Source of the DNA: Oscillospiraceae bacterium
GTDB taxonomy: Bacteria; Bacillota; Clostridia; Oscillospirales; Ruminococcaceae
Length of the DNA: 64,000 bases
Assembly (NCBI GenBank): GCA_017545185.1
Contig: JAFWQJ010000052.1
Coordinates: forward strand, 124,001-188,000
Direction of reading: 5' to 3'
The position numbers and the translations under genes are program-made. The stretch's first letter is position 1. Each line of letters starts with the position of its first letter. Below are positions 8,074 through 27,576 of this stretch, piece after piece. Under the pieces are notes generated by a model. It saw only the letters and a list, made by a program, of their open reading frames with translations, was not told where the DNA came from and did not search any database.

Positions 8074-8137
8074 ATAGTATCCGTTGCCCTCTGATTTCAT
8101 TTCCGGCATTTTCGCCGGGGATTTTACACTCCTTTAT

Positions 8138-8166
8138 ATTATAACATACCGTGTACATTTTGTAAA
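8138..8166 (-). promoter_or_regulatory. Sigma-A promoter for the activase operon
   Basis: On the minus strand TTTACA (8166-8161) and TATAAT (8143-8138) are 17 bases apart, placing the start near 8131 and a leader of about 58 bases before the ATG at 8073. Confidence 0.75.
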
Positions 8167-8238
8167 GTCCTGATTTGTGCAGGTGTGCGGAAACCGGGCG
8201 ATTGTTTTATCTATAATGCATAAATTTGTCGCATTTCA

Positions 8239-8267
8239 TTGACAATAACACATATAAATGGTATAAT
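8239..8267 (+). promoter_or_regulatory. Consensus sigma-A promoter for the LRR-dockerin gene
   Basis: Perfect TTGACA (8239-8244) and TATAAT (8262-8267) with a 17-base spacer; the start would be near 8274, about 43 bases before the ATG at 8317. Confidence 0.9.
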
Positions 8268-8316
8268 AATGATACCGTATCAGCACGTTACAATGCAACG
8301 AGAGGAAGTATTATGT

Positions 8317-11055: not shown

Positions 11056-11118
11056 CGGGGAGCCCCCGCGGGCGATTCCCTCCGGGGCGGGGAGCCCCCG
11101 CGGGCATTTCCCTTCGGG
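11055..11118 (+). repeat. Two tandem 32-bp GC-rich repeats
   Basis: 11055-11086 and 11087-11118 match at 29 of 32 positions; each contains GAGCCCCCGCGGGC, which is partly self-complementary. A related GAGCCCCCGCAGGCG sits directly after the tex stop (1180-1194). Confidence 0.75.
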
Positions 11119-11181
11119 GACGGTGAGCGTAGTTCTCCCAATATTCGCGGTACACGCCGCGGGGCGGCTTCTGCGGCTTTG

Positions 11182-11260
11182 CTTCTCCCAATGCTGAAGC
11201 GCACCGGAAGTACAATCAATCACAAAAGGACGCTGATTGCTGTCAGCGTCCTTTTTATAT
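11182..11260 (+). repeat. Dispersed 3'-end element, copy 2, ending in a bidirectional terminator
   Basis: TCTCCCAATGCTGAAGCGC begins near 11182, identical to the copy on the minus strand at 3841-3823. It is followed by a strong hairpin: AAAAGGACGCTGA (11224-11236) against TCAGCGTCCTTTT (11243-11255), with a T run. The hairpin serves the LRR-dockerin gene and the convergent AI-2E-family gene. Confidence 0.75.
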
Positions 11261-11293
11261 CTGTATAACGGGGGCTGCGGACAATGTATGCTC

Positions 11294-12730
11294 TCACCGC
11301 TTTTTCTTTTTGCTGTTATGCTTTTTCTGCGGGTAGCTCTTTTGCTGCTGCGAGATCGGTTTGCGTTCCTGTGCCGCATTGTGCGCAGCAGCGGATTCCG
11401 GCTCCTGTAACGGCTTCGTTTCTACCGGCGGATCCGGTTCTTGTTCCGGTACTTCCGGCTCCTGTAAAGGCTCCGGTTCGATCGCCGGATGCTGGATCGC
11501 CTCCATGGTCGGGCCGTTCAGCGGCCTGTCCACAATGCGAAGTCCGGTTTCGGGTTCGGGTTCCGGCACGGCGAGCCGTTCGGCCTCCTCCATGTTATGG
11601 ATCGCCTCTTTCAGCAGCTGATAGAGGATCGCGAACAGCGGCACGGCAAAGATAATGCCCATGATGCCCGCGAAGCCGCCGCCCAGAATGACCGCGACCA
11701 GCACGAGCAGTCCCGGCAGGCCGATCGAATTGCCGACGACGCGCGGGTAGATGAACTGTCCCTCGATCTGCTGCAGCGCGAGGATAAACACAAGGAACCA
11801 GATCACGCGCTCGGGTGCCTCAACGAGGATCAGCAGCGCACCGACGCCGCCGCCGATCCATGCGCCGATGATCGGGAGCAGTGCCGTGATGCCGGTCAGA
11901 ATGCCGATCGTCGCGGCATAGGGGAACCGGAAGATATACAGCCCCAGCGTACAGAGCGAGCCGATGATGACCGCCTCGATGATCTGTCCGGTCAGGAAAT
12001 TCGCGAACGAGGTGTTTGCAAGATGCAGGATGCGGAACACCTGCTCCTGATACCGCTTCGGCGAAACGAGCTGCAGGAACTTGTGGAACACATAGAGCAC
12101 GCGTTCCTTCTGTACGAGCAGATAGATCGCGATGATGAGCCCGAGCACGAGGTTCGTGACCGTGGACAGCACCGAGGCCGTCGCGGAGAACGCCGTGCCG
12201 AGCACCGAGGTGATCTCGACCTTGCCGTCAAGAAAATTCGTGACGTAGTTGTATGCGGTGTCCCAGTCAACGTCAAATTCGCGGAGCTTTTTCATGATAA
12301 ATTCCGGCGTGTTCCATGCAAGGAGCTGTTTTTCGCAGATCTCCCAGAGCTGATCCTGACTGCGCGGCATTTTCTCGATCAGCATGTTGACCGCGTTCGT
12401 AACCTGCGGGATAATGAGCAGGACGATCATGGCGAGCAGGATCAGGCCGAGCAGCACCGTGCAGACCGCGCTCAGTACCGGCGCGATCTTCCGCTCGATC
12501 GGGTGACTGGATGCCGACATATTGCGGAATACCTTGTGTTTGAACAGGTTGAGGATCAGATTGATGACGAACGCGATGCAGATGCCGTAGGCGACCGGCC
12601 GGATGATCGCGAACAGCCAGACAAACGCGCTTTTGATCGTGGAGAAATGCGTGAGCCCGAGATACAGCAGAATGCCGTAGGTCACGAGCATGAATGAGGA
12701 TTTGAGCCGCGGACGGCGTTCATGATCCAT
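11294..12730 (-). CDS. AI-2E family (UPF0118) membrane permease
   Basis: A 478-residue polytopic membrane protein with about eight hydrophobic segments and a central extracytoplasmic or amphipathic stretch around residues 130-180. The family hallmark appears in the last third: YAATIGILTGITALLPIIGAWIGGG followed by QQIEGQFIYPRVVGNSIGLPGL. The family was named for proposed autoinducer-2 export, but several members are Na+/H+ antiporters or have unknown substrates. About 90 C-terminal residues form a hydrophilic Pro/Glu-rich tail ending in a Lys-rich patch, longer than usual. It lies 14 bases downstream of ppk1 and is probably co-transcribed with it. Confidence 0.85.
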   Translation of the reverse strand: MDHERRPRLKSSFMLVTYGILLYLGLTHFSTIKSAFVWLFAIIRPVAYGICIAFVINLILNLFKHKVFRNMSASSHPIERKIAPVLSAVCTVLLGLILLAMIVLLIIPQVTNAVNMLIEKMPRSQDQLWEICEKQLLAWNTPEFIMKKLREFDVDWDTAYNYVTNFLDGKVEITSVLGTAFSATASVLSTVTNLVLGLIIAIYLLVQKERVLYVFHKFLQLVSPKRYQEQVFRILHLANTSFANFLTGQIIEAVIIGSLCTLGLYIFRFPYAATIGILTGITALLPIIGAWIGGGVGALLILVEAPERVIWFLVFILALQQIEGQFIYPRVVGNSIGLPGLLVLVAVILGGGFAGIMGIIFAVPLFAILYQLLKEAIHNMEEAERLAVPEPEPETGLRIVDRPLNGPTMEAIQHPAIEPEPLQEPEVPEQEPDPPVETKPLQEPESAAAHNAAQERKPISQQQKSYPQKKHNSKKKKR

Positions 12731-15150: not shown

Positions 15151-15876
15151 TTACACCGTATATCCCTTTTCCCGAAGGCTGTCGATCAGCTCCCCGAGGA
15201 TCGTCGCATTTGTTTCCGAGACCGAATGCAGCAGATAGACCGCGCCGCCGTGTGCCATATCCGTCAGCTTCTGAAGGGCTGCGGCGGGCTCCGGCTGATC
15301 GTCCGTTTTCCAGTCCTCGTATGCCGCGCTCCAGAACAGTGTCCGGTAGCCGAGCGACTTGACCTTTTCCAGCGAAAATGCGTCGTATTCGCCGCAGGGC
15401 GGCCGGAAATACTGCATGTCATAGCCGTACTGCTGCTGCACGAAGCTGTGCAGCGTCATCAGCTCCTCCTCGATCGCGGCACTGTTCATGCCCGCGATGC
15501 AGGCGTGCTTCATGCCGTGGTTGCCGAGCGTGTGTCCCTCCACGATCATGCGTTCAATGAGCGCGGGTTCCTTCCGTGCATAGTCGCCGGTCAGGAAAAA
15601 GATCGCAGTCACATGCTTTTCCTTCAGCGTGTCAAGGATTTTCGCGGTATAGCCGTTCTCGTAGCCCTGATCGAATGTCAGGATGATCCGCTGCGGGTCA
15701 TCCGAGAGCGCAAACGCGCCGGAAGCGGCGTACTGCGCCTGAAATGTGACGGCACCGGCCGGACGGTTCATCGCATCGCGTTCTCTGCCCTGACCGTAGC
15801 CCTCCGCAGAGACCTGCATCCCTGTCAGCAGGGAGACCGCCGCCAGCACCGGAAACAGATACTTTGCCCGTTTCAT
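15151..15876 (-). CDS. Secreted polysaccharide deacetylase, PdaA-like
   Basis: The product is 241 residues, with an N-terminal signal peptide or anchor (MKRAKYLFPVLAAVSLLTG). The NodB-type catalytic motifs follow: ILTFDQGYENG (metal-binding and base Asp), EGHTLGNHGMKH (metal-binding His pair) and FRPPCGEYD. The Gln in TFDQGYENG is typical of the PdaA group, which de-acetylates N-acetylmuramic acid for muramic-delta-lactam formation; other members act on GlcNAc polymers. AAAGGA is 7 bases ahead of the ATG at 15876; an in-frame start at 15909 lacks this. Sporulation linkage is not visible here, so the exact substrate is inferred. Confidence 0.85.
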   Translation of the reverse strand: MKRAKYLFPVLAAVSLLTGMQVSAEGYGQGRERDAMNRPAGAVTFQAQYAASGAFALSDDPQRIILTFDQGYENGYTAKILDTLKEKHVTAIFFLTGDYARKEPALIERMIVEGHTLGNHGMKHACIAGMNSAAIEEELMTLHSFVQQQYGYDMQYFRPPCGEYDAFSLEKVKSLGYRTLFWSAAYEDWKTDDQPEPAAALQKLTDMAHGGAVYLLHSVSETNATILGELIDSLREKGYTV

Positions 15877-16052
15877 GCTGTCATCCTTTCCTGCGGAACA
15901 TGTCCGCATTTTCAGGTTATGCAGCAGCGGACATTTTATGTGAGGAAGCTTTTTCTGACTGCTTCATTTTTCCTCTGTGTATTCCGCCCGGTTTGCGGCA
16001 TACTGTTCCTGTCGGAGCATCCGATGATGCGATATGCGAAAGGAGCAGCAAT

Positions 16053-16338: not shown

Positions 16339-16379
16339 ATAGCATGGATGATTTCGCATTCCGGTGATTGGAGGACAGT

Positions 16380-17039
16380 ATGGCTTTGGTATCGGTTTCA
16401 ATACTCAACGGCGATCTTGCACGTTTGGCGGATGTTGCCGCGGTGATCGGAGATGCGCGTGCGGATATGCTGCATTTTGATGTGATGGACGGCAGCTTTG
16501 TGGACAATCTTTCCTTCGGGCTGCCGGTGCTGAGCTGCTTAAAGCCGCTGGTCACGCTCCCGGTCGATGTACATCTGATGATCGAGGATCCGCTGCATTT
16601 TGCCGAACGCTTTGTGAAGGCCGGCGCGGATCTGCTCTCATTTCATATCGAAAGCCGCTCCGATGCAGGGGAGACGCTGAACGCGATCCACAGCCTCGGC
16701 ATTCCGGCGGGCATTGCCGTTTCCCCGGATACGCCGGAGGAAACGGTCTTTCCGCTGCTTGAGAAGATGCAGCCGGAGGATTTTATCCTGATGATGACCG
16801 TCCGTCCGGGAATGGGCGGGCAGCAGTTCATGCCGGAGGTGCTGAAAAAGATCGCGCATCTCCGCAGCCGCATCACGGCGCTGGACATGCCGCTCCATAT
16901 CGAAGTGGACGGCGGCATCAACGCGGAGACCGGCGCGCGCTGCCGGAAAGCAGGCGCGGATTATCTGGTCGCGGGCTCCTATGTGCTCTGCTCGGATGAC
17001 CCGGCAGAAGCGGTGCGCTCGCTGAAAACGCCGCTCTGA
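16380..17039 (+). CDS. rpe: Ribulose-phosphate 3-epimerase
   Basis: A 219-residue TIM-barrel enzyme that interconverts ribulose 5-phosphate and xylulose 5-phosphate in the pentose phosphate pathway. Signature motifs are present: HFDVMDGSFVDNLSFG, DVHLMIEDP, VRPGMGGQQF and the phosphate-binding VDGGIN and VAGSYVL. Two positions differ from the commonest consensus: the N-terminal PSIL is VSIL, and PGFGGQ is PGMGGQ. GGAGG at 16370-16374 lies 5 bases before the ATG. The stop is one base from the convergent mecA-like stop, so no terminator separates them. A ribulose-phosphate-like sugar epimerase with altered specificity is a minor alternative. Confidence 0.88.
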   Translation: MALVSVSILNGDLARLADVAAVIGDARADMLHFDVMDGSFVDNLSFGLPVLSCLKPLVTLPVDVHLMIEDPLHFAERFVKAGADLLSFHIESRSDAGETLNAIHSLGIPAGIAVSPDTPEETVFPLLEKMQPEDFILMMTVRPGMGGQQFMPEVLKKIAHLRSRITALDMPLHIEVDGGINAETGARCRKAGADYLVAGSYVLCSDDPAEAVRSLKTPL

Positions 17040-17040
17040 A

Positions 17041-17586
17041 TCAGAATACCCTGACGGCATCCTGCTCGCAGAGGCAGCTGCCGTATTCCGATAACCTTGC
17101 GCGGTTCAGCGGGGACAGCCGGAACGGTCTGCCGTATTCCGACAGCAGATGATGAACGGTCGCGGCACCCGTGCGCCGGAGCTTTAAGGTCAGGATGAAC
17201 TGGCAGCGGTATTCATAGAGCCTGCTGCTGATGATCGCATCCTGCTTTTCGCGGAGCAGCCTGCAGCAGCTTTTGAGCGTGCTGCGGTCGGGGAACCTTG
17301 CCGCAAGGCGGACGGTCTTTGTCTGTTTCGGCTTTTCGGCGGGCGCGGACTGTACCGTAAAATACGCGGAGAGACTGCCGTCCCTTGCGGTCAGCAGCTC
17401 GACCGTGACCGGATGCGCCGTGAACGGAATGCCGGTCGCGAGCTCCGCCTTTGAGAGCATGAACGAGATCAGACGGAGCACCTGCGGCGAATCCGGCGGT
17501 GCATCCGGATCATATAAAAAGACGGTCAGCTCATCCGCTGTGAGCTGCACCTTGACGGACTGTGCGGAGAGCTGCTGTACGGTCAT
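17041..17586 (-). CDS. mecA: MecA-like adaptor protein
   Basis: The 181-residue product starts MTVQQLSAQSVKVQLTADEL, matching the N-terminal target-binding domain of MecA (negative regulator of competence). The central region is Pro/Lys-rich and likely flexible. The C-terminal part (SSRLYEYRCQFILTLKLRR to SEYGRPF) resembles the ClpC-binding domain. MecA proteins deliver substrates to ClpCP and stimulate ClpC oligomerisation in the cytoplasm. It lies head-to-head with the RnfD-like gene, 37 bases apart, and its stop abuts rpe. AAAGGA precedes the ATG. Residue identity to classical MecA appears low outside the N-terminus. Confidence 0.7.
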   Translation of the reverse strand: MTVQQLSAQSVKVQLTADELTVFLYDPDAPPDSPQVLRLISFMLSKAELATGIPFTAHPVTVELLTARDGSLSAYFTVQSAPAEKPKQTKTVRLAARFPDRSTLKSCCRLLREKQDAIISSRLYEYRCQFILTLKLRRTGAATVHHLLSEYGRPFRLSPLNRARLSEYGSCLCEQDAVRVF

Positions 17587-17623: not shown

Positions 17624-18613
17624 TTGGGGGTGAACCGGTTGCAGAATCAACTTGAGGGCAGGCAGATGTTTGACCGCGGCTGTGCGCTGCTGGCGATCCT
17701 TGCCGCTGCTTCTTACAGCTACGGCTTTCGGGTCTGGCTGCTGGCTGCTGCTGCGCTGATCGTTTCCCTGCTGACGGAATGGTGCTGCCTGTATCTGCGG
17801 AAGCGTCCCTTTACGCGGGCGAATCTGGATGCAGGGCTCTGCGGCGTGATCCTGCTGCTGATGCTACCGGCATCCGTTCCGTTCTCTTTGCTTATCATGT
17901 CCTGTATTTTTGCAATTATTTTCGGCAGACAGCTCCTCGGCGGCAGGGAAAATCCGGTCGTGCATCCTGCGGCGGCGGGCTTTTGCTTTGCGATGCTGAA
18001 TCAGCGCGCTGCCGTGACAATGTTTTCCAAACGCTTCGGCGCGATCCCGCTTGCGGGTGCGGATGCCGGTGCACTGGTCAGCGGCATCTCGGACACGTTC
18101 AACCGCGGCAGAGGCCTTTCGGGTCATGCGGTTGACTGGCTGACCGGTCTGCCGAACCAGCCGCTCGGGACGGGTTCGGTCGTGCTGCTTGCGGTTGTTG
18201 CCGCGGTACTGGTGCTGCGGAAGGCGGCGAACGGCTGGGTGCTTCTGCCTGCTGTTGCATTTTCCGCGTTCTGCAGCGTACTGCTTGGGTTTATGCGGCA
18301 GCCTGCCGTGCAGATCATCGGGCTTTGCCTGACAAATCAGTTTTTGTTTTCGGTGATCTTCCTGCACGCGGATCCCGCCTTTTCCCCGCCCGATCTGGCG
18401 GGCTCGCTGTACGGCGTTGCGCTGGCCGGTGCGTCGGTGATCCTGACGCGCGTGCTGTTTATCACGGATGCGCCCGTGATGCTGGCGGTGCTACTCTCAC
18501 CGGCAGCGTTGAAGCTGTGCGAACTGATGCGCAGATATCAGCCGCAGAATGGAGGTGCTGACGGTGCAGAACGAAACGAAGCGTCTGCCGTACCGGGATC
18601 CGGTACTGACTGA
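17624..18613 (+). CDS. RnfD/NqrB-like membrane protein lacking the flavinylation motif
   Basis: A polytopic protein of about 329 residues with roughly nine hydrophobic segments. RnfD family landmarks are LLGGRENPVVHPAAAGF (family: GGxGxNPFNPAxxG), then GLPNQPLGTG in place of GNIPGSIGE, and IFLHADPAFSPP in place of MATDPVSSP. The covalent-FMN site, S-(T/G)-A-T in active RnfD/NqrB, reads S-G-H-A at about residues 166-169, so the acceptor Thr is missing. The start is uncertain: TTG 17624, GTG 17630, or ATG 17666, the last with GAGGG 7 bases upstream. It is first of a four-gene overlapping operon. A solute channel or a complex subunit without redox function are both possible. Confidence 0.78.
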   Translation: MGVNRLQNQLEGRQMFDRGCALLAILAAASYSYGFRVWLLAAAALIVSLLTEWCCLYLRKRPFTRANLDAGLCGVILLLMLPASVPFSLLIMSCIFAIIFGRQLLGGRENPVVHPAAAGFCFAMLNQRAAVTMFSKRFGAIPLAGADAGALVSGISDTFNRGRGLSGHAVDWLTGLPNQPLGTGSVVLLAVVAAVLVLRKAANGWVLLPAVAFSAFCSVLLGFMRQPAVQIIGLCLTNQFLFSVIFLHADPAFSPPDLAGSLYGVALAGASVILTRVLFITDAPVMLAVLLSPAALKLCELMRRYQPQNGGADGAERNEASAVPGSGTD

Positions 18614-19151
18614 CGGCCTGCTCGCGGCGCCGCTGGCGGTGTTCTGCGAGGATTTCGCGCACGGACTGGCAAGCGCCTTTATGCTGGCGGCTGTCATGCT
18701 GATCGCCGTCCCGCTGACGGCACTCGTTCCGCGGAAGCTGCCGCTTTCGGTGCGCATCCTATTTTATTCTGCCGTCTGCGCTTTGGTGTATATCCCCGCT
18801 GCACTCTTTGCAGCGACCTTATTCCCGACGGTTTCCGGCGGCATCTGGATGCCCGTGATCGCGCTGATGCCGGCCATGACGGTCTGCCGCGACCGCTATT
18901 TCGGCGGAAAGGGCATGTTCCGCAATCTGCTGCGGACGGTGCTGACGGTCTCGCTGCTGATGACGGTATTCGGTGCCGTGCGCGAGCTGCTCGGGACCGG
19001 GACGCTTTCCGGCAGAGCGTTTGTGACGCCGCCGCTGCCGTTTATCCTCACACCGGCAGGCGGAATGCTGCTGCTCTGCTGCCTGTGCATCGCGCGTGTG
19101 TATCTGCCGAAGCGGATCAGAAAGGAGGCGGAAGACCGTGCTGCTGGCTGA
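18564..19151 (+). CDS. RnfE-like membrane protein lacking the conserved cysteines
   Basis: A 195-residue protein with six hydrophobic segments, resembling RnfE/NqrD. It shows DPVLTDGLLAAPLAVF near the N-terminus and FGAVRELLGTGTLSGRAF followed by PLPFILTPAGGML near the C-terminus, the latter a close match to RnfE. In functional RnfE/NqrD one Cys in each half-repeat binds a [2Fe-2S] cluster within the membrane. Here the GLCP position reads AAP and the TNC position reads PAM. GTG at 18564 is preferred over the ATG at 18549 because GGAGG sits 8 bases before it. It overlaps the RnfD-like gene by 50 bases and the RnfA-like gene by 14. Confidence 0.78.
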   Translation: MQNETKRLPYRDPVLTDGLLAAPLAVFCEDFAHGLASAFMLAAVMLIAVPLTALVPRKLPLSVRILFYSAVCALVYIPAALFAATLFPTVSGGIWMPVIALMPAMTVCRDRYFGGKGMFRNLLRTVLTVSLLMTVFGAVRELLGTGTLSGRAFVTPPLPFILTPAGGMLLLCCLCIARVYLPKRIRKEAEDRAAG

Positions 19152-19701
19152 TTTTCTGGTGCTGCTCGGGCAGAACCTGCTCTTTTCGGAGTTCCTCGGC
19201 ATCCCGTCCGTCGCGGATGCGGGGCGGCGGGGCAAGGGTCTGCTGCGCGCCGGTATCTTTACGCTGTTCTTTTGTACATTCGGCGCAGGCTTTACGTCGC
19301 TGCTCCGGAACCTGCTGTCCGTCCGGACGGAAAAGCTGTTTTTCCCGCTCTGTATCGCAGCCGTCTGCGGAGTCATGGATATCCTGCTGATGCTGCTTTT
19401 CAGGCTGATCTCCAAGAAAATGACCGAAGCGATCGCCCCGCAGCTCCATGCGGCGGCCTGCTCGTCCGCGGTGCTGGCCGCGATCCTCTACAGCACGGAT
19501 TATACGCATGAATTCGGCATTGCCCTGCGGTACGGCTTCCGCATGGGCTGCGGCTATCTGCTCGCGTGCATCCTGCTGCGGCTCGCGATTCCGACGATCT
19601 GCGGCGAAAAAATGCCTGCTGCGGTACGCGGCTGGCGCGGCCTGTTTTTATACTGTGCACTGCTTTCCATGGCAGGTGCCTGCATGTTTCCGACTGCTTG
19701 A
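19138..19701 (+). CDS. RnfA-like membrane protein lacking the conserved cysteines
   Basis: A 187-residue polytopic protein resembling RnfA/NqrE. The N-terminus LLADFLVLLGQNLLFSEFLGIPSV aligns with the RnfA start, where FLGLCP carries a cluster-ligating Cys; here the residues are FLGIPS. The second ligand motif (TTNCAVLG) aligns with ACSSAVLA, so that Cys is also displaced. The start is GTG 19138, supported by AAAGGAGG 9 bases upstream. Together with the two preceding genes it forms a D-E-A trio; RnfC, RnfG and RnfB genes, needed for electron entry, are absent from the window. The function is unknown. Confidence 0.75.
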   Translation: MLLADFLVLLGQNLLFSEFLGIPSVADAGRRGKGLLRAGIFTLFFCTFGAGFTSLLRNLLSVRTEKLFFPLCIAAVCGVMDILLMLLFRLISKKMTEAIAPQLHAAACSSAVLAAILYSTDYTHEFGIALRYGFRMGCGYLLACILLRLAIPTICGEKMPAAVRGWRGLFLYCALLSMAGACMFPTA

Positions 19702-19721
19702 ACGGAAAGGAGACCGTATTC

Positions 19722-21071
19722 GTGAAGCACAGAAAAAAAGGAAGAAGAATCTATACATACCGCACCAAAAACAGACGGGTATTCAACCGCAATCATCCGA
19801 TGCGCTCGGCATTCGGCACGGCGGTTCTGCTGGCGCTGCTCGCATTCTGTGTGATCGTCGGCTATAACGTGATCGGCCCGATCGTCACGCGGGTGAATCT
19901 CGAGGCGGAGCACCCGACGACCACGCCTGACCCGTATTTCAGCGAATCATCCGATGCATCCGATAAACCGGATAAACCGGATACACCGGAATCAGGCAGT
20001 CAGCCGGAGCAGTCCGCAAAGCAGACGACCGCGAAAATCAAAGCGACCACGCTCTCCGTCACGACGACCGTTACAACGACGACAGAGCCGGTCATGACGC
20101 GGTTCCCGGACGGCGCCGAGGTCGACTACATGTTGCCGGAGGATGCGCTCCGCGACCTGAACACACTTGACCGCTATGCGGCGGACGCTGCAAAGCAGGG
20201 CTATACGGCGGTCGTTCTGCCGCTGAAATTAAAGGGCGGCATGCTGCAGTATGCGTCCGGCAATGACCGCGCAAAGACCTGCGGCGCGTCAAGTGTCAAC
20301 ATGCTGACGCTCCGTGAGATCACGAATGCCGCAGACCGTTATCACCTGACCTGCTCGGCGCTGTTCAGCACGCTGGAGGATCATGTCTATCCGAATGTGT
20401 ACATGGACGGCTCCTTCATCTTCAACGGCTCGACGCGCTGGCTTGACAACAAGCCGGAATCCGGCGGCAAGCCGTGGCTCAATCCGTTCGATCCGGCATC
20501 CGGCAATTATCTGGCTGATCTTGCGGCGGAGATCGAACGCAGCGGCTTCCGGCACATCCTCTGCACGGATGCGGTATTCCCGAATTTCTTTCGCTCGGAC
20601 GCGGAGCTGCTCGGCAACCGCATTCAGGATAATGAGCAGCGCAAAAAGGCGCTGACTTCCGTGCTGAACCAGATCTCCGCGGCGGCACCCTCTGCGGGCA
20701 GCTATATCTCCCTTGCGGAGCTGGTGCTCGGCCATGAGGAGGCATTCGTGCCGGAGATGCTCGAAGCAAAGCAGGTCTATGTCCGCATTGATCCGCAGGA
20801 TCTGCCGCAGGCGTTCACGCTCGGCGGACAGAATTACGATCCCGCTTCGCTTTCCGGCGATGACAAGATCCTGCTGCTCGCATCCGCAGCCAAAGCCGCG
20901 GCAGGCGGCCGTCAGCTGATCCCCGTGATCCCGGCCGGCGGAAGAACGGATGCCGAGATCACGCATCTGATCGAAACGCTCTGCGGTGCAGGCTATGAGA
21001 CTGTCTGCATGGACCCCGGCAGGTCTGATGACGGCACACAGGATGCGGCTGCGGATTCCGCTGATGAATAA
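19722..21071 (+). CDS. Membrane-anchored glycoside-hydrolase-like protein (DUF4015-like)
   Basis: The 449-residue product has a short basic cytoplasmic start, one membrane segment (FGTAVLLALLAFCVIVGYNVI), a Thr/Pro/Ser-rich linker (about residues 65-125), and an extracellular domain. That domain resembles the DUF4015 putative TIM-barrel glycosidases: AADAAKQGYTAVVLPLK, then WLNPFDPASGNYLADLAAEI followed by GFRHILCTDAVFPNF, matching their WxNPxxPxxxxY ... GFxxIxxDxVxFP pattern. GTG at 19722 is chosen because GGAAAGGAG lies 8 bases upstream. It is 20 bases after the RnfA-like gene and precedes a terminator, so it ends that operon. Enzymatic activity is not established for the family. Confidence 0.72.
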   Translation: MKHRKKGRRIYTYRTKNRRVFNRNHPMRSAFGTAVLLALLAFCVIVGYNVIGPIVTRVNLEAEHPTTTPDPYFSESSDASDKPDKPDTPESGSQPEQSAKQTTAKIKATTLSVTTTVTTTTEPVMTRFPDGAEVDYMLPEDALRDLNTLDRYAADAAKQGYTAVVLPLKLKGGMLQYASGNDRAKTCGASSVNMLTLREITNAADRYHLTCSALFSTLEDHVYPNVYMDGSFIFNGSTRWLDNKPESGGKPWLNPFDPASGNYLADLAAEIERSGFRHILCTDAVFPNFFRSDAELLGNRIQDNEQRKKALTSVLNQISAAAPSAGSYISLAELVLGHEEAFVPEMLEAKQVYVRIDPQDLPQAFTLGGQNYDPASLSGDDKILLLASAAKAAAGGRQLIPVIPAGGRTDAEITHLIETLCGAGYETVCMDPGRSDDGTQDAAADSADE

Positions 21072-21078
21072 AAACGAT

Positions 21079-21115
21079 AAGCACGCGCTGTCTTTGCGGA
21101 CGGTGCGTGCTTTTT
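21079..21115 (+). terminator. Intrinsic terminator of the Rnf-like operon
   Basis: AAGCACGC (21079-21086) pairs with GCGTGCTT (21105-21112) followed by TTTG; the loop can form a further GTC/GAC pairing. Confidence 0.75.
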
Positions 21116-21222: not shown

Positions 21223-24200
21223 ATGACAATATTGCAAAAACAATTTGCCGTACTGACTGCTGCCGTTCTGCTGCTGAACGGTTCCGCTGCTTCCGTGCCC
21301 GTACCGGTTCAGGCGGTGCGGAAGGGATCGGTCTCCGCGTTTGCCGAACAGCTGCTCTCTGCCGGCCGCAGCCTGCCGGAGCAGCCCTTTGCCGAACTGG
21401 TATATGACAGTGAGACCGGGCAGCTCCTGCGGGACGGTGCACCGGCCGGGGAATGCTTTGCCGGATTCTCCGCGGAAAACGGCGTGCTTTCCGTTGAGAA
21501 GGCCGCGGTTCTGACGCAGGCCGAGCTTGATGCCGGTGCCGATGCGTCCGGTACGGTCTCCCTTGCGGAGGCCGCAGAGAAGATCGGCTGCAGTGTGATC
21601 ACCGAAAACGGGCGGACTGTTGTCAGCTCGCCGTTTCAGTCCGGCACGCTGATTGTCCGGTCGGAGGGCAGCTTTGATCTGCGCGGCGGAACGGATACGG
21701 CGTCCGGCTTTGAAGGGCTGCATGTCCTGCAGTATCCGACCGCCGCAGATGCCTATCAGGCATACAATGCATTCTGCTCGGACGGCAGTATTTCCTTTGC
21801 CGAGCCGGAGCTGATCTATCATGTCTGCGGTGACGGAGACGGCGGGGAACTCAGCGATGAGATCGCAGAGGGACAGTGGGGCTATGACGCAGTCGGCTGT
21901 GATGTGTTCATGCAGAGGCTGGACGACGAACAGAATGATGCAAATCCGCTCTGTGTGGCGGTGCTCGATACCGGCATCACCGCAGAGCACAGCTGGTTCA
22001 GGAACCGGATCGCGGAGGGCGGCTGTTCGTTTGTCCCGGAGGTCATGACGAATGCCGATGACCACCGGCACGGTACCTTCTGTGCGGGCATCATCGCGCA
22101 CTGCACGAGAGACAATGTGAAGATTCTGCCGCTGAAGGTGCTGGACCGCACCGGCTACGGCACATCGGTTCAGGTCTACTGCGGAATGCTGTACGCGGCA
22201 GAGCTCGGCGCCGATGTCATCAACATGAGCCTTTCCGGAATGGGGCAGTCTCTGCTGCTGGAGGAAGGCGCGGAGCTGCTCAGAAATGAGGGCATCACCT
22301 GTGTTGCGGCAGCCGGAAACGAAAAATGGGATGTGATTTACGACAATCCCGCGAATATCGACGGTGTGGTCGCAGTCTCGTCTGTTACGCAGCTGAACGG
22401 CAAAGACCCTGCCATGCCGCCGGAGTTCCGCTATGATCTTTCGGAGTTCAGCAATTACGGCAAAATGATCGACTTCTGCGCGCCCGGCGATCACATTACC
22501 AGTGCGTATTATCATACGAAGGACGGGCTTCAGACGGACAGCGGCACCAGCATGGCGGCGCCCTTTGTCTCGGCCTGCTGTGCGAATCTGCTGGATTATG
22601 ACCCGCTGCTGACATCGGATCAGATTTTTGAAGTGCTGAGCAGAAATACGGTCGATCTCGGCGAGCAGGAGTATGATGTGAAGTTCGGCTGGGGTATGGT
22701 CTGCATGAAGGATTTTGTGATGACGGAGGGCTTTTGCCAGCGTCCGGAGGCATCGGTCAAAAGCGGACATTTTACCGCCGTGACCCCGGTGACGCTTTCC
22801 TGCATGGAAGAATTTTCCGATATTTATTATACGACCGACGGCAGTATACCGGACAGGTCAAACGGCATCCGGTATGACGGGACGCCGCTGCAGATCGACC
22901 GGACAATGACACTGAAGGCGATCGCGTATACCGATCAGGCGGTCAGCGCGGTTCTGGTCCGCGAATACTGCATTGACTGTCCGGTGCCGGAGGTGTCGGT
23001 CAAGCCCGGCGTATACAGCGACACGGTCAGTCCGGAACTCCGCAGTGCGGTGCAGGCGGATATCTACTATACGCTGGACGGTTCTTATCCCGACCCGAAA
23101 ACGGCAAAGCATTATGAGGGCGAGCCGATCGAAATTGATGAAACCACGCTGATCGGCGCGGTCACCGTGATCGGAGAGATGCAGAGTGAACCGCTCTGGG
23201 CGGCCTACGAGATCGGCGGCCTGCACAGGGAGCGTCTCCTGCGGTTTGAGGGCTCCGTGCTGGCCGGGTGCTATCTGACCGGCAGGGAGCTGGATCTTGC
23301 CGCGCTTGCCGGAACACATAAGATTACGGAGATTGCACCGCGCGTCTTCGCGGAGAGAAGCGGGCTGACTGCGGTCACGCTGCCGGATACCGTGACGGTG
23401 CTCGGTGAGGCCGCATTTGAGAACTGCACCGATCTGAAGCAGGTGACGGCAAAGGGCGCCGTGACGCTCGGCAGAAGTGTGTTCTCCGGATGCAGCAGTC
23501 TGGCGTCCGCAGCGCTCGGCGACGTGACGGAGCTTCCTGCCTATGCATTTTCCGGCTGCAGGGCAATGTGCAGCAGCGGGCTTGATCTGAAAAAGCTCCG
23601 GTCGGTCGGTGCGTATGCGTTTGCCGGCAGCGGCTGCAGTGATACGTTTGATCTGCCTGCGCTGGAAACGCTCGGCAGCGGAGCCTTTTCCGATATGGAG
23701 CGCCTTGATCTGATCCTGCCGGAACGGATCACAAAGCTCCCGGACGCTCTCTGCCGGAATACGGCAAAGCTTTCGCTGACCGCGCCGGGCGTGACGGAGA
23801 TCGGCGCAAATGCACTTGCAGCCGAGTCCGGCGACCGTGAGATCCTGCGGCTGGAGATCCCGTTTGAGGCGCTGACTGCGGTCGGCGAATGCGCCTTTGC
23901 GTTTGCCGATCTGAACCTTGTGACCGGCGGGCAGATCATCTTCTCCGCGCTGACGGAGGCTGACAAGGGCGCATTCCGGCATGTGAGCTGCCGCGGCATG
24001 GCGTTTCCGCAGCTCAAGACCGTGCTGTCCGATACCTTCAGCGGCATCCGGAGTGAGGTGCTCCGTCTGGACAGTGCAGAGCTGATCTGTCAGGAAGCGG
24101 TCAGTCCGAAGCAGCCGGAATCCTGCTGTCTGATCCTCGGGAGCAGCCGTATTGAAATTGATGAAAACGCGCTCGGTGATCCGCTGCTCTATGCCGCGGT

Positions 24201-27200
24201 CGCGGCGCCTGCAAATTCCGGTGCCGTGAAATTCTGCCGGAAGCATAACTATCCGTTCCGGGAGACGCCGGATCTATTTCTGCCGGAGGATAAGCCTGGG
24301 ATGCTGACCGGTGAGCAGACACTGCTGACCGCCGTGCCGCTCGGGATCGGGCTGCAGGCATCCTGGCAGCAGGATGCGGCGCCGCCGGATGTCTCCGCAG
24401 CGGGCGCTGACATGCTGTTTGCCGATCTCGATCCGTTTGCGGTATCGGGTGAGCTCAGCAGCTGGAAGGCGATGCTCTGGGAAAACGAAACGCTCCTCAA
24501 GACGCGGGAGGTCAGCGCCGTCCGCACTGATTTTATCAAGTATACGAAGATCGCGAAAACGGATGACCCCGTGCTTGTGATCTGGAACGAGCTGATACCG
24601 CAGTCGGAGCTGGACCTTCTTGCCGGCCGGCCGGTTTCTGCGAAGTACACGTTTACTGCCCCGCATGAAGGCGATTACATCTGCTATGCGGTGAACCCGG
24701 CGGGAGAGCTCACGGTGCAGCCGGATACCTCGGCGGCCTTTGTCCAGAAGGGCAGCGGCACGGAGCCCGGAAAGCTGTCCCATGTGCATCTGCAGGCAGG
24801 GGAAACGGTCACGATGACACTGCGCGATCTCGGCTCCTATGCCGTCAATGCGGTTCTGGTCTCGGAGCAGTACCCGAAGCAGACGCTTGCGGACGCCGTG
24901 ATCGAAGCGGAGGAAGCGCTGCGCGATTATCAGCCGGATCAGGAGCCGCCCGCCGTGACGGTGAAGGATCGGGGCACGGTCCTGCAGCAGGATACGGATT
25001 ATGTGATTCGCTGCCGCTTTGCGGAGAAGCCGGGCATCACGGAGATCTATGCGGTCGGCATCGGTATGTACGCGGGGATTCTGTACTGCAGTGCGTGGGA
25101 TGCGGAGCCGTATTCCGAAGGCACTGCGCTGCGGCTCCCGGCTGACGGTTACAGCTCGCATCTTTACCGGATGATCCCGGAGCAGAGCGGGCAGTATGTC
25201 GTTTCGCTGGTGCCGGGCGAGCCGGACAGGCTCCCGGAGCTCATGACGACCGAAACGATGAATGTCGATCTGCTGATCTGGGACAGCAGTCTGGAATGGA
25301 TCGAAGCGGACAATTCGCTCAGCATCACGGGGCAGTATCTCTGTCGGTTCACGGCAGGGGAGCCGGTGTATCTGATGCTGTTTATCCGGGAAAACAGCGG
25401 CCGCAGCTATGTGCTGAATGCGGAACCGCTCGGAGACAGAAAATACCTCGGCTATGCGTATTTCCGGGAGAAGGAAGCAGATTTCACCGGTTCGGAGCCG
25501 GACTGCCCGCCGGAGGTGCTGTGCTATCCGCCTGACCTTGATCTGAATGCATCCGGCAGCGAGCCGGATTATGTGCCGCCGGAGCCTGCCGTTCTGACCG
25601 CAGGGACGGATTATGAATGGGTGCGCGCGGACGTGCTGCTGCCGGGAGATGTGCGCTGGGTGCTGACCGGAAAGGGCAGCTGTGCCGGCTGTCAGATCCT
25701 GACGCAGAGACTGCATTATGATTTTAACAATGCTGCGGAGATCAGGGCGGATGAGCCGGTTTCCTGCAGCGGAAATGCCGCGGTATTCCGGTATGTGCAG
25801 CGCGGTGACGAGCCTGTGCCGGAGATCATTTCCGAGGACGGCTCCGCGTTTGAATGTGCGTATTATTTTGATAAGGACATGGACGGGGAATGCCGGCAGC
25901 GTTTATCGTACCGCTATGCGCAGAAGCTCAGAAAGTATCAGGAAGCGTATATCGCGGTCAGACCGTCAGACGGCAGGCCGCACAGCTACCGCCTGCAGGG
26001 CGGGAAAAAGAAGATCCTGCTTGCGGATGCCGAAGCGGAGCCGGTCACGGCGGATTATACCGGACAGGTGCAGCAGCCTTCCTTCCGCGTGACCTATCAG
26101 GGACGCGAGCTGCAGGAGGGGACCGATTACACGATCCGGATGAATGGTGAATGCCGCGAATGCGGGGAGTATTATCCGCGGTTGACCGGCCTCGGCGATT
26201 TTACCGGCACGCTGACCGGCTCCTTTACGATCGTGATGCCGGATCCGGAGCAGCTGACGCCGGTGCCGAAGGACGTCATGGAAGCCGTGATCCGGAGCCC
26301 GGGCGCGGCGGAGCTTTACAGCTTCGTGCCGGAGAGCAGAAGCTGCTGCCTCATGAAAACATCTATGCCGGATGCGTCGGTCCGGCTGCTGGACAGCAGA
26401 GGACTGACCGTCGGCAGAGCGTCCGGCATCGGGGCGCAGAGCAGCGTGGCCGCGGTGCAGGCAGGCGTGCAGTATTATGTCGCTGTAGCCCTGACCGCGC
26501 CGCAGGAGACGGGCGTCGTCCGGTTCGAGGTCATAGAGGATGCCGTCGCGATCAGCTCCTGCCGGATCACCGGCGAAAAGCTGCTGCAGCGGAACGGCCG
26601 CGAGGAACTGCCGGAGATCCATGTGTTTGACGGCGATACTGAACTTTTGGCAGGCTGTGATTATACGATGCTCGTCAGCGATACGCCGTTTCAGTACGGA
26701 TATAATATTCTGTATATCCGCGGCTGCGGAAAATACACCGGCGAGGTGCTGTATGAGTATTATGTCGCGCCGCAGCTGGACACCGTGTATTGCGAAGATA
26801 AAGCAGACGCCATGACGCTTGAACAGGATGTGATGCTCCGGCCCTCTTATCCCGGCAGCTGCCATTCGCTCAGCTTTACGGCGCCGGAGGACGGCACATA
26901 CTATCTGGACATGAGCAAATATGACAGTGACTGCTGCACGCTGCTGCGGTACGCGAAGGACAAAAGTACGTTCTCCGTGGGCAGGCTCTGCTTCAAGATG
27001 AAAAAGGGTGAAACGATCCGGTTCATATCCGTCATGAACTGGCCGGAATCGGATACGGATCCGAAGAAGGACGCGTCCGTCCGCATGACGGAAAAAATGC
27101 CGGTGATCAGCTTTGAGCAGAACGGCTGCAGCTTCCTGACCGCGGCAGACGGCACGTTCTCGGTCATGGCGCTCCCGCCGGATCAGTGCGGGTATATCCT

Positions 27201-27576
27201 GCCGGAAACGGTGACCGATCCCGAGACCGGCATCACGGCGCGGTTCTATGAGATCTTCGGCAAGCTGACATGGCATGGCTACGACTTCTTCGTCGGAACG
27301 GTCACGATCTACGGGACGCCGGGCGGCGCGGTCGAAGCGTTCTGCGACGAAAACGGCTACTGCTTCTCGGACATTGATCCGGACTGCTCCGTGCGCGGCG
27401 ACCTGACCGGAGACGGCCTTGTCAATGCAGACGACAGTCAGACGCTCAGCCGCTGGCTCGCGGAGGGCGGCGGCATGATGCTGCCGGGTCGGGCTGCGGA
27501 GGCGGCCGATCTGAACGGCGACGGACAGATCACGCTTTCCGATCTGTATGAGATCCTGAAGATCGCAAAGGGATAA
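21223..27576 (+). CDS. Giant secreted subtilase (S8) with LRR and C-terminal dockerin
   Basis: A 2117-residue cellulosomal protease candidate. After a signal peptide and a propeptide-like region comes an S8 catalytic domain of about residues 220-510 with the triad Asp249 (VAVLDTGI), His283 (HRHGTFCAGII) and Ser443 (SGTSMAAPFVSA). Two chitobiase-C-terminal-like beta modules follow (DIYYTTDGSIPD, DIYYTLDGSYPD), then BspA-type leucine-rich repeats around residues 680-1000. A long beta-rich region with repeated GTDYxxR-like elements precedes the dockerin, with Ca loops in GDLTGDGLVNADDSQ and DLNGDGQITLSD. Proteolysis near the scaffoldin, or maturation of cellulosomal components, is inferred. It is a single uninterrupted frame with its own promoter and terminator. 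Confidence 0.9.
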   Translation: MTILQKQFAVLTAAVLLLNGSAASVPVPVQAVRKGSVSAFAEQLLSAGRSLPEQPFAELVYDSETGQLLRDGAPAGECFAGFSAENGVLSVEKAAVLTQAELDAGADASGTVSLAEAAEKIGCSVITENGRTVVSSPFQSGTLIVRSEGSFDLRGGTDTASGFEGLHVLQYPTAADAYQAYNAFCSDGSISFAEPELIYHVCGDGDGGELSDEIAEGQWGYDAVGCDVFMQRLDDEQNDANPLCVAVLDTGITAEHSWFRNRIAEGGCSFVPEVMTNADDHRHGTFCAGIIAHCTRDNVKILPLKVLDRTGYGTSVQVYCGMLYAAELGADVINMSLSGMGQSLLLEEGAELLRNEGITCVAAAGNEKWDVIYDNPANIDGVVAVSSVTQLNGKDPAMPPEFRYDLSEFSNYGKMIDFCAPGDHITSAYYHTKDGLQTDSGTSMAAPFVSACCANLLDYDPLLTSDQIFEVLSRNTVDLGEQEYDVKFGWGMVCMKDFVMTEGFCQRPEASVKSGHFTAVTPVTLSCMEEFSDIYYTTDGSIPDRSNGIRYDGTPLQIDRTMTLKAIAYTDQAVSAVLVREYCIDCPVPEVSVKPGVYSDTVSPELRSAVQADIYYTLDGSYPDPKTAKHYEGEPIEIDETTLIGAVTVIGEMQSEPLWAAYEIGGLHRERLLRFEGSVLAGCYLTGRELDLAALAGTHKITEIAPRVFAERSGLTAVTLPDTVTVLGEAAFENCTDLKQVTAKGAVTLGRSVFSGCSSLASAALGDVTELPAYAFSGCRAMCSSGLDLKKLRSVGAYAFAGSGCSDTFDLPALETLGSGAFSDMERLDLILPERITKLPDALCRNTAKLSLTAPGVTEIGANALAAESGDREILRLEIPFEALTAVGECAFAFADLNLVTGGQIIFSALTEADKGAFRHVSCRGMAFPQLKTVLSDTFSGIRSEVLRLDSAELICQEAVSPKQPESCCLILGSSRIEIDENALGDPLLYAAVAAPANSGAVKFCRKHNYPFRETPDLFLPEDKPGMLTGEQTLLTAVPLGIGLQASWQQDAAPPDVSAAGADMLFADLDPFAVSGELSSWKAMLWENETLLKTREVSAVRTDFIKYTKIAKTDDPVLVIWNELIPQSELDLLAGRPVSAKYTFTAPHEGDYICYAVNPAGELTVQPDTSAAFVQKGSGTEPGKLSHVHLQAGETVTMTLRDLGSYAVNAVLVSEQYPKQTLADAVIEAEEALRDYQPDQEPPAVTVKDRGTVLQQDTDYVIRCRFAEKPGITEIYAVGIGMYAGILYCSAWDAEPYSEGTALRLPADGYSSHLYRMIPEQSGQYVVSLVPGEPDRLPELMTTETMNVDLLIWDSSLEWIEADNSLSITGQYLCRFTAGEPVYLMLFIRENSGRSYVLNAEPLGDRKYLGYAYFREKEADFTGSEPDCPPEVLCYPPDLDLNASGSEPDYVPPEPAVLTAGTDYEWVRADVLLPGDVRWVLTGKGSCAGCQILTQRLHYDFNNAAEIRADEPVSCSGNAAVFRYVQRGDEPVPEIISEDGSAFECAYYFDKDMDGECRQRLSYRYAQKLRKYQEAYIAVRPSDGRPHSYRLQGGKKKILLADAEAEPVTADYTGQVQQPSFRVTYQGRELQEGTDYTIRMNGECRECGEYYPRLTGLGDFTGTLTGSFTIVMPDPEQLTPVPKDVMEAVIRSPGAAELYSFVPESRSCCLMKTSMPDASVRLLDSRGLTVGRASGIGAQSSVAAVQAGVQYYVAVALTAPQETGVVRFEVIEDAVAISSCRITGEKLLQRNGREELPEIHVFDGDTELLAGCDYTMLVSDTPFQYGYNILYIRGCGKYTGEVLYEYYVAPQLDTVYCEDKADAMTLEQDVMLRPSYPGSCHSLSFTAPEDGTYYLDMSKYDSDCCTLLRYAKDKSTFSVGRLCFKMKKGETIRFISVMNWPESDTDPKKDASVRMTEKMPVISFEQNGCSFLTAADGTFSVMALPPDQCGYILPETVTDPETGITARFYEIFGKLTWHGYDFFVGTVTIYGTPGGAVEAFCDENGYCFSDIDPDCSVRGDLTGDGLVNADDSQTLSRWLAEGGGMMLPGRAAEAADLNGDGQITLSDLYEILKIAKG

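Follow-up and report, generated by a model that had tools for sequence, protein, structure and literature searches.

The closest described relatives of the genes considered here belong to the Rnf and Nqr families of membrane complexes. The genes lie in a 64,000-nucleotide stretch from an Oscillospiraceae bacterium (assembly GCA_017545185.1, contig JAFWQJ010000052.1, positions 124,001 to 188,000; the whole stretch is called the window), where they form an operon that we label D, E, A and GH. D, E and A are homologous to RnfD, RnfE and RnfA of the Rnf complex (RnfABCDGE), their order is that of rnfCDGEAB minus G, and an upstream gene of some relatives, C', is homologous to RnfC. They differ in being paralogues without the threonine that accepts flavin mononucleotide (FMN), without the set of cysteines for the [2Fe-2S] cluster, and without RnfG and RnfB; a DUF4015-like protein, GH, is found instead, and the form in the window is also without C'.

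Other described systems share single features with this operon. Na+-NQR provides a precedent for a change of role, having come from a duplicate rnf operon in which rnfB was lost and a new function gained (PMC4014512), and its subunit NqrA is retained without cofactors (PMC12174285). It differs in that it retains flavins and a cluster (see also PMC12174285), and the profiles of the D, E and A paralogues are closer to Rnf. Nqr/Rnf-like flavinylated systems also include an RnfD-like subunit without the conserved flavinylation site, but such systems contain an NqrC/RnfG-like partner, an NAD domain and only two apparent subunits (PMC8238504, PMC10979944); at trio-only loci, no RnfG-like gene was found at an E-value of 0.01. 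RnfD has been likened to urea/ammonium transporters (PMC9588780) and RnfA and RnfE to symporters (PMC9588780, PMC12174285), and in Acetobacterium woodii residues near the A/E cluster have been named for Na+ passage (PMC11889175). In the literature searched, which leaves out most subscription papers, neither the loss of the ligands nor the RnfC-like part nor the link to DUF4015 was found mentioned.

The D/E/A-GH operon is very probably Rnf-derived and not an electron pump. The best overall explanation, to which we give a probability of about 0.45, is that a duplicate of the rnf operon was stripped of electron transfer and now works as a conduit formed by D together with a surface protein. Of the original prediction for this locus, a repurposed membrane complex is supported, as are the loss of ligands and the link to the DUF4015-like gene, and the suggested channel stays a conjecture.

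Redox ligands in the D, E and A paralogues

All four genes are on the plus strand. D (17666..18613; start ATG 17666, with TTG 17624 as an alternative) encodes an RnfD/NqrB-family membrane protein without the FMN-acceptor Thr. E (18549..19151, with an alternative GTG start 15 bases inward of 18549) and A (19138..19701, with a GTG start codon preceded by AAAGGAGG) encode RnfE- and RnfA-family membrane proteins, each without either cluster Cys. These three were assigned from open reading frames, Pfam, profiles and ligand columns, and GH (19722..21071), a DUF4015-like protein with altered acids, from Pfam, a profile match to structure 4s1a and motif counts. The D, E and A genes overlap one another, GH begins 20 bases past A, and the operon ends at an intrinsic terminator-like hairpin on the plus strand (21079..21112) that has the longest stem among 9 sites found by a terminator scan, where 4.5 were expected. 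A promoter scan found 1 site against 1.2 expected.

In Pfam, D (submitted from codon 2) matches PF03116 with an E-value of 4.9e-31 over residues 5-282 of 314. E and A match PF02508 (3.6e-5, 24.3 bits, and 1.4e-10, 41.9 bits, against a cut-off of 23.8), and GH matches PF13200, the DUF4015 family (2.6e-8, 33.8 bits, cut-off 27). Scores against the NCBI models of Rnf/Nqr subunits fell far under the model cut-offs, an early sign of divergent paralogues. The relatives' profiles match best to RnfD (9e-67), RnfE (2.5e-29) and RnfA (2.6e-36), and less well to NqrB, NqrD and NqrE. Furthermore, in quick trees of sampled sequences the E paralogues form one clade beside RnfE and the A paralogues one clade beside RnfA. 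The homology to RnfD, RnfE and RnfA claimed at the outset is thus borne out by the Pfam and profile matches, as is the layout that had been described, with a DUF4015-like gene 20 bases downstream and then a terminator. Chance or misannotation of the trio is ruled out by the profile matches and by the D-E-A-GH order at 67/80 loci in the scan described below.

Ligands were counted per sequence over distinct proteins, not per independent event, with the trio and canonical classes defined by profiles built on loci sorted by context. At the four positions of the [2Fe-2S] cluster, the window proteins have Ala (E Cys26), Pro (E Cys109), Pro (A Cys25) and Ser (A Cys113). Zero Cys was found in 56/105 paralogue E/A pairs, one in 49/105, and two or more in 0/105; all four are present in 9/9 canonical pairs from the same locus set. 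By column, Cys occurs in 13/107 (E Cys26), 0/107 (E Cys109), 0/108 (A Cys25) and 37/108 (A Cys113) paralogues, and a second, different alignment agrees with these counts. The predicted loss of the RnfE and RnfA cysteines therefore stands, and cluster ligands at shifted positions are ruled out because the aligned Cys never number more than one in a paralogue pair. Window A has a Cys two residues ahead of the Cys113 column, in a column that holds Cys in 10/108, and some Cys lies within four columns of the A Cys113 site in 52/108 and of the E sites in 17/107 and 9/107; these would not form a set of four.

The FMN-acceptor column of RnfD holds Thr in 2/111 paralogues versus 11/11 canonical proteins, and in window D it is the Gly of LVSGISDTFNRG, about 12 residues before SGHA. 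The prediction was correct in that the FMN Thr is lost, but it had misplaced the acceptor column at SGHA. A nearby Thr in window D (SDT) is not conserved, since three sister genomes have SAA, STV and SNL. Among other FMN-site residues named for the RnfD of Clostridium tetanomorphum, Asn90 and Glu185 are each kept in 2/111 paralogues, and Arg and Ser are not among the common residues in the columns of Arg130 and Ser284. In the riboflavin site of window D the Asp is present and Asn124 is replaced by His. The N-terminal arm of D that binds RnfC reads SPH in 0/111 paralogues versus 7/11 canonical proteins, and [SAPT]PH in 41/111 versus 11/11, with starts being uncertain. Gly/Pro positions common to Rnf are retained in the paralogues.

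A role of the trio as a sodium pump is disfavoured by these sequences, because several of the residues of RnfA/E named for Na+ passage have changed: A Thr111 is Phe in 77/108, A Thr110 is Ala in 71/108, and A Glu88 is mostly hydrophobic. The ion-pair network is partly kept, with E Arg68 as Arg in 77/107 and E Glu116 as Glu or Asp in 52/107, which weighs against its complete loss. A conduit for a solute and a scaffold are then the remaining options. These data also bear on Faecalibacterium duncaniae A2-165, in which rnfDEA (CG447_09840-830) is described as one of two putative rnf operons and taken as energy-conserving (PMC10781979). This is probably the same operon as the window type, to judge from the D-E-A-GH locus of a Faecalibacterium sp. 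metagenome-assembled genome (MAG; locus L199). The listing of the F. duncaniae operon speaks for an accessory Rnf that adds to a ferredoxin:NAD-driven ion pump, as was assumed there. Such a role is very improbable for the window type, in which the cluster ligands are lost and neither B nor G is found; in the Rnf complex of A. woodii, mutants of the cluster Cys or of riboflavin residues lose activity (PMC11889175).

Distribution, selection and other rnf parts

Matches to PF02508 were found in 100/120 genomes. In other genera of the same family (G030-G072, n=43), 31 genomes have at least four matches, 4 a weaker pair only (best E 1e-28 to 1e-17), 5 a strong pair only, and 3 none. Within the window's genus, 13 genomes, including that of the window, carry the weak pair only, so canonical Rnf is not needed. 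Four genomes of 75-98% completeness (G005, G023, G026 and G029) carry D-GH but gave no match to PF02508 at E 0.001. The 50 D matches taken as paralogues, together with the window, give 51 loci, of which 41 are D-E-A-GH, 5 are D-GH and 5 are without a recognized GH; four of the latter are cut off by the end of a contig, the exception being L094. At L094 a 309-residue frame (7773-8702) comes after A. Three families besides that of the window carry D loci (G078/G102, G086/G108 and G094).

A separate scan of named genomes used the motif GGKPWLNP from trio GH proteins, and is independent of D/E/A, although not of the clade. The best 80 of 122 relatives were kept, and 8 of these 80 loci share a D with a locus of the genome survey. 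They comprise 67 D-E-A-GH, 1 D-GH, 3 with GH alone (more than 4.6 kb of sequence without D/E/A) and 9 with less than 3.2 kb of upstream sequence, one of which (L174) has 2.9 kb without D/E/A. The link of the trio to the DUF4015-like gene, for which a survey had been proposed, is thus widespread (41/51 and 67/80 loci). Among these best 80 of 122, a Ruminococcus sp. MAG comes closest of the named relatives, with 94% identity over the GH protein, and carriers, as MAGs or isolates, include Ruminococcus flavefaciens, Anaerotruncus colihominis DSM 17241, Bittarella massiliensis, Merdimmobilis hominis and Faecalibacterium sp. Ruminococcus and Faecalibacterium are not known to form spores, so a role of the operon in sporulation is unlikely. 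No trio was found beyond the order in 40 DUF4015 regions out of 79 listed matches, sampled through GH only; several of these class-level regions start where a contig ends, and one of the genomes, G085, belongs to the window's order. As a separate observation, two loci, L112 (5852-7363) and L114 (5857-7374), encode an RnfE-like paralogue that is extended at its N-terminus by about 300 residues.

The ratio of nonsynonymous to synonymous substitution rates (dN/dS) is 0.09-0.37 in all within-genus pairs tried, and the operon of trio and GH is under purifying selection. Local decay to a pseudogene is ruled out by these values and by the 67/80 D-E-A-GH loci. The loss of parts in grades, described below, would suit a functionless, decaying remnant of rnf, an idea that is scarcely credible given the same dN/dS values, the intact frames and an order conserved over many genera.

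The window's genome is a draft of 3.6 Mb in 94 contigs, estimated as 95.2% complete. There are no RnfC, RnfG or RnfB genes beside the trio within the window, as had been noted originally. Beyond the window's E and A no PF02508 match was found in the draft genome, an absence that is provisional; likewise, a second complete rnf operon was looked for and not found, provisionally for a draft of 94 contigs. Contig C32 (18734-20975) carries rnfC and then a second rnfD, whose product has Thr at the acceptor column, and G, E, A and B were not found after them. The pair is perhaps a one-way electron path. Similar orphan rnfC-rnfD pairs without G/E/A/B are seen at L129 and L130, and the RnfD Thr lies in altered motifs (VTQTPL, VTYETPL, VTYSTPL). 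A search of the genome with the C' profile matched only the RnfC of C32 and one marginal stretch. The sole ApbE match of the genome (C40, 74651-75807) adjoins a gene for a membrane protein that has an FMN_bind domain at its C-terminus, a pair that corresponds to loci L010 and L237, and the best match to PF04060 (FeS domain) is a 561-residue frame on contig C23.

The RnfC-like gene and residual electron transfer

An RnfC-like gene, C', lies directly upstream of D in 55/119 paralogue D loci. The best match of its profile is a solved RnfC (7zc6_C, 7.1e-78). Two simple patterns for the NADH/FMN site occur in 0/52 distinct C' proteins versus 8/11 and 11/11 canonical RnfC, and of six C' proteins scanned for the FMN-binding domain PF01512, four scored below the cut-off and two, from L112 and L113, above it. 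Both of these loci are placed close to the canonical forms in the tree. In Anaerotruncus colihominis DSM 17241 (L162, 2-2410), C' continues into a long charged tail, in an 802-residue frame ended by the locus edge. The earlier picture of a system without RnfC is true at the window but not for these relatives, in which C' with [4Fe-4S] motifs (55/119 loci) points to graded loss. Queries with RnfG and RnfB match canonical loci and no trio-only locus at 1e-6. At E 0.01, RnfG matched all 9 canonical loci with E/A and no trio-only locus, and RnfB touched L162 (6e-4), L241 and L257 weakly, which we take as ferredoxin-like matches.

The 119 loci fall into C'DEA-GH (53), DEA-GH (50), D-GH (6) and ten others, five of which are D-E-A-GH with an undecided C' state, the rest being incomplete or without GH. 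In a tree of D (sampled sequences, quick method), the C'DEA forms are closest to canonical RnfD, followed by mostly C'-less forms, and D-GH is nested in the window's genus. The C'-less label changes five times on this tree, three of the changes being forced by well-supported branches, and gains and losses are not distinguished. We read the series CDGEAB, C'DEA-GH, DEA-GH (the window) and D-GH as a stepwise removal of electron transfer from a copy of Rnf.

How complete this removal is can be considered from the riboflavin site. With D scored as being without C' only where at least 1.5 kb of upstream sequence was present, Asn124 is Asn in 52/52 distinct D with C' versus 12/53 without it, which suggests that the C' forms still pass electrons from C' to riboflavin in D. 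This is the basis for a different view of the whole clade, as a redox device in which electrons would pass through C' (in the window, through the orphan RnfC-RnfD of C32) to non-covalent riboflavin in D and then to quinone or an outside acceptor. It agrees with the presence of C', with its two [4Fe-4S] motifs, beside 55/119 D, with the retained Asp248 of D, and with a published NqrB/RnfD-like subunit that has no FMN site (PMC10979944). However, the window lineage has neither C' nor Asn124, the two NADH/FMN-site patterns are absent from C', RnfG is detected at 9/9 canonical loci that have E/A and at none of the trio-only ones (E 0.01), and E/A have no cluster ligand set. As an account of the operon, a redox device is rather improbable.

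Several observations nevertheless weigh against a complete departure from redox chemistry or against a conduit in D. C' keeps two CxxCxxCxxxC [4Fe-4S] motifs in 50/52 distinct proteins, which leaves some members of the clade with redox groups. The riboflavin-site Asp248 of D is Asp in 88/111 paralogues, including the window, and Glu in 17/111, and some ligand may still occupy the riboflavin site. Potentially metal-binding residues are present at all four cluster positions in 22/105 E/A pairs, the window having them at one of the four. At L094, D-E-A is followed by 4.3 kb (7700-12001) without a recognized GH. Finally, no path for ions was seen in RnfD when the A. woodii complex was studied (PMC11889175).

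The surface protein and a possible conduit

GH has one N-terminal hydrophobic helix preceded by basic residues, a Thr/Pro-rich linker and a DUF4015 domain. Its profile matches the DUF4015 structure 4s1a (1.1e-34), and it resembles DUF4015 proteins (PF13200) in this respect, but differs in that the acids of the QFD and VVD motifs are often replaced in the clade. In 43 DUF4015 genes of other lineages, from the 40 class-level loci, the acids are present in 40/43 (VVD), 43/43 (FKD) and 43/43 (QFD), and in GH proteins of the clade in 46/117, 114/117 and 44/117, respectively. Window GH has P, D and T, and has thus lost two of the three. The description of a glycosidase-like surface protein holds as far as the DUF4015 match is concerned, but two near-invariant DUF4015 acids are missing in the window lineage, whose GH may, to judge from these residues, bind instead of cutting. 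DUF4015 is loosely tied to wall polymers, being fused with a YkyA domain that is also fused with polysaccharide deacetylases (PMC12700454).

DUF4015 genes are also found after canonical rnf operons, in 6/40 class-level loci, all from one family, f47 (L213, L214, L216, L238, L239 and L240). Among the matches listed, every f47 genome matched has this pairing (6/6), with the order rnfCDGEAB then DUF4015 at L216 and one intervening gene at L214. The f47 proteins form their own clade within DUF4015, apart from trio GH (sampled quick tree), and the idea that GH arose from these rnf-adjacent proteins is not supported. DUF4015 proteins would then probably have come beside Rnf membrane genes twice.

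The proposed explanation, a stripped rnf duplicate, can be set out as follows. An rnf operon would have been duplicated, and within the window's order the copy occurs in three or more families besides the window's own. Missing from the copy are RnfG and RnfB, the covalent FMN site in RnfD, the cluster ligands in RnfA/E and, in RnfC, the NADH/FMN motifs; in the window lineage RnfC and the riboflavin-site Asn are missing as well, leaving no identifiable electron carrier. These losses are evident in the sequences, and it is their order that we infer. What remains is a membrane body like RnfD/E/A and, outside, a membrane-anchored protein of the TIM-barrel family, which may form a joint complex. 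GH may replace RnfG, both having one N-terminal helix and an outer domain. The RnfD-like protein would most likely let a small solute pass at the cell surface, as a conduit or a gated pore, E and A would be helper subunits that some lineages dispense with, and the GH domain may bind or process an envelope or dietary glycan beside D. That D is a conduit is a tentative proposal, held at a little less than even odds, and draws on the published likeness of RnfD to urea/ammonium transporters and on the lost or altered flavin sites. It is possible, although on balance doubtful, that this is the first non-redox machine on an Rnf/Nqr core, in which the emptied shaft of RnfD is a solute conduit, a TIM-barrel protein takes the place of RnfG, and relatives preserve the steps.

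The nearest rival to this proposal is that D/E/A serve as a scaffold or sensor that anchors, orients or gates the surface protein, with no solute being moved. No other gene accompanies D as constantly as GH, which is present also in the D-GH form, the Gly/Pro positions persist, as does the RE pair of E, where cofactor and several ion-site residues are lost, and the cofactor-free NqrA kept in Nqr provides an analogy. Against this it can be argued that keeping a transporter-like membrane protein as a mere anchor is costly, and that GH already has a hydrophobic anchor of its own. We regard a scaffold or sensor as unlikely.

The neighborhood of the operon is partly conserved. Upstream are rpe (16368..17039, plus strand; homologues in 47/51 loci) and a MecA-family gene (17041..17586, minus strand; 37/51 loci). 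A polysaccharide deacetylase gene (15151..15909, minus strand; PF01522 in Pfam) is further upstream, and 18/22 loci of the window's genus have such a gene on the strand opposite to D, at 2.4-3.4 kb upstream of it. Just downstream of the operon is a gene (21223..27576, plus strand) for a 2117-residue protein in which a domain scan identified subtilase, Fn3-associated, BspA-type leucine-rich-repeat and C-terminal dockerin domains; similar genes occur in 13/51 loci.

Rnf and Nqr have been studied as redox pumps, and two Rnf structure papers disagree on whether it is RnfD or RnfA/E that lets the ions pass. What the membrane body does without electrons could be tested on a natural series such as this one, with cofactor sites lost stepwise and the body still under selection. 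Furthermore, energy conservation of the Rnf type is very improbable for the rnfDEA genes of common gut bacteria, which at least one paper has classed as such an Rnf. In gut bacteria related to Ruminococcus, a copy of the genes for an Rnf-type electron pump seems to have been turned to another job, together with a surface protein.

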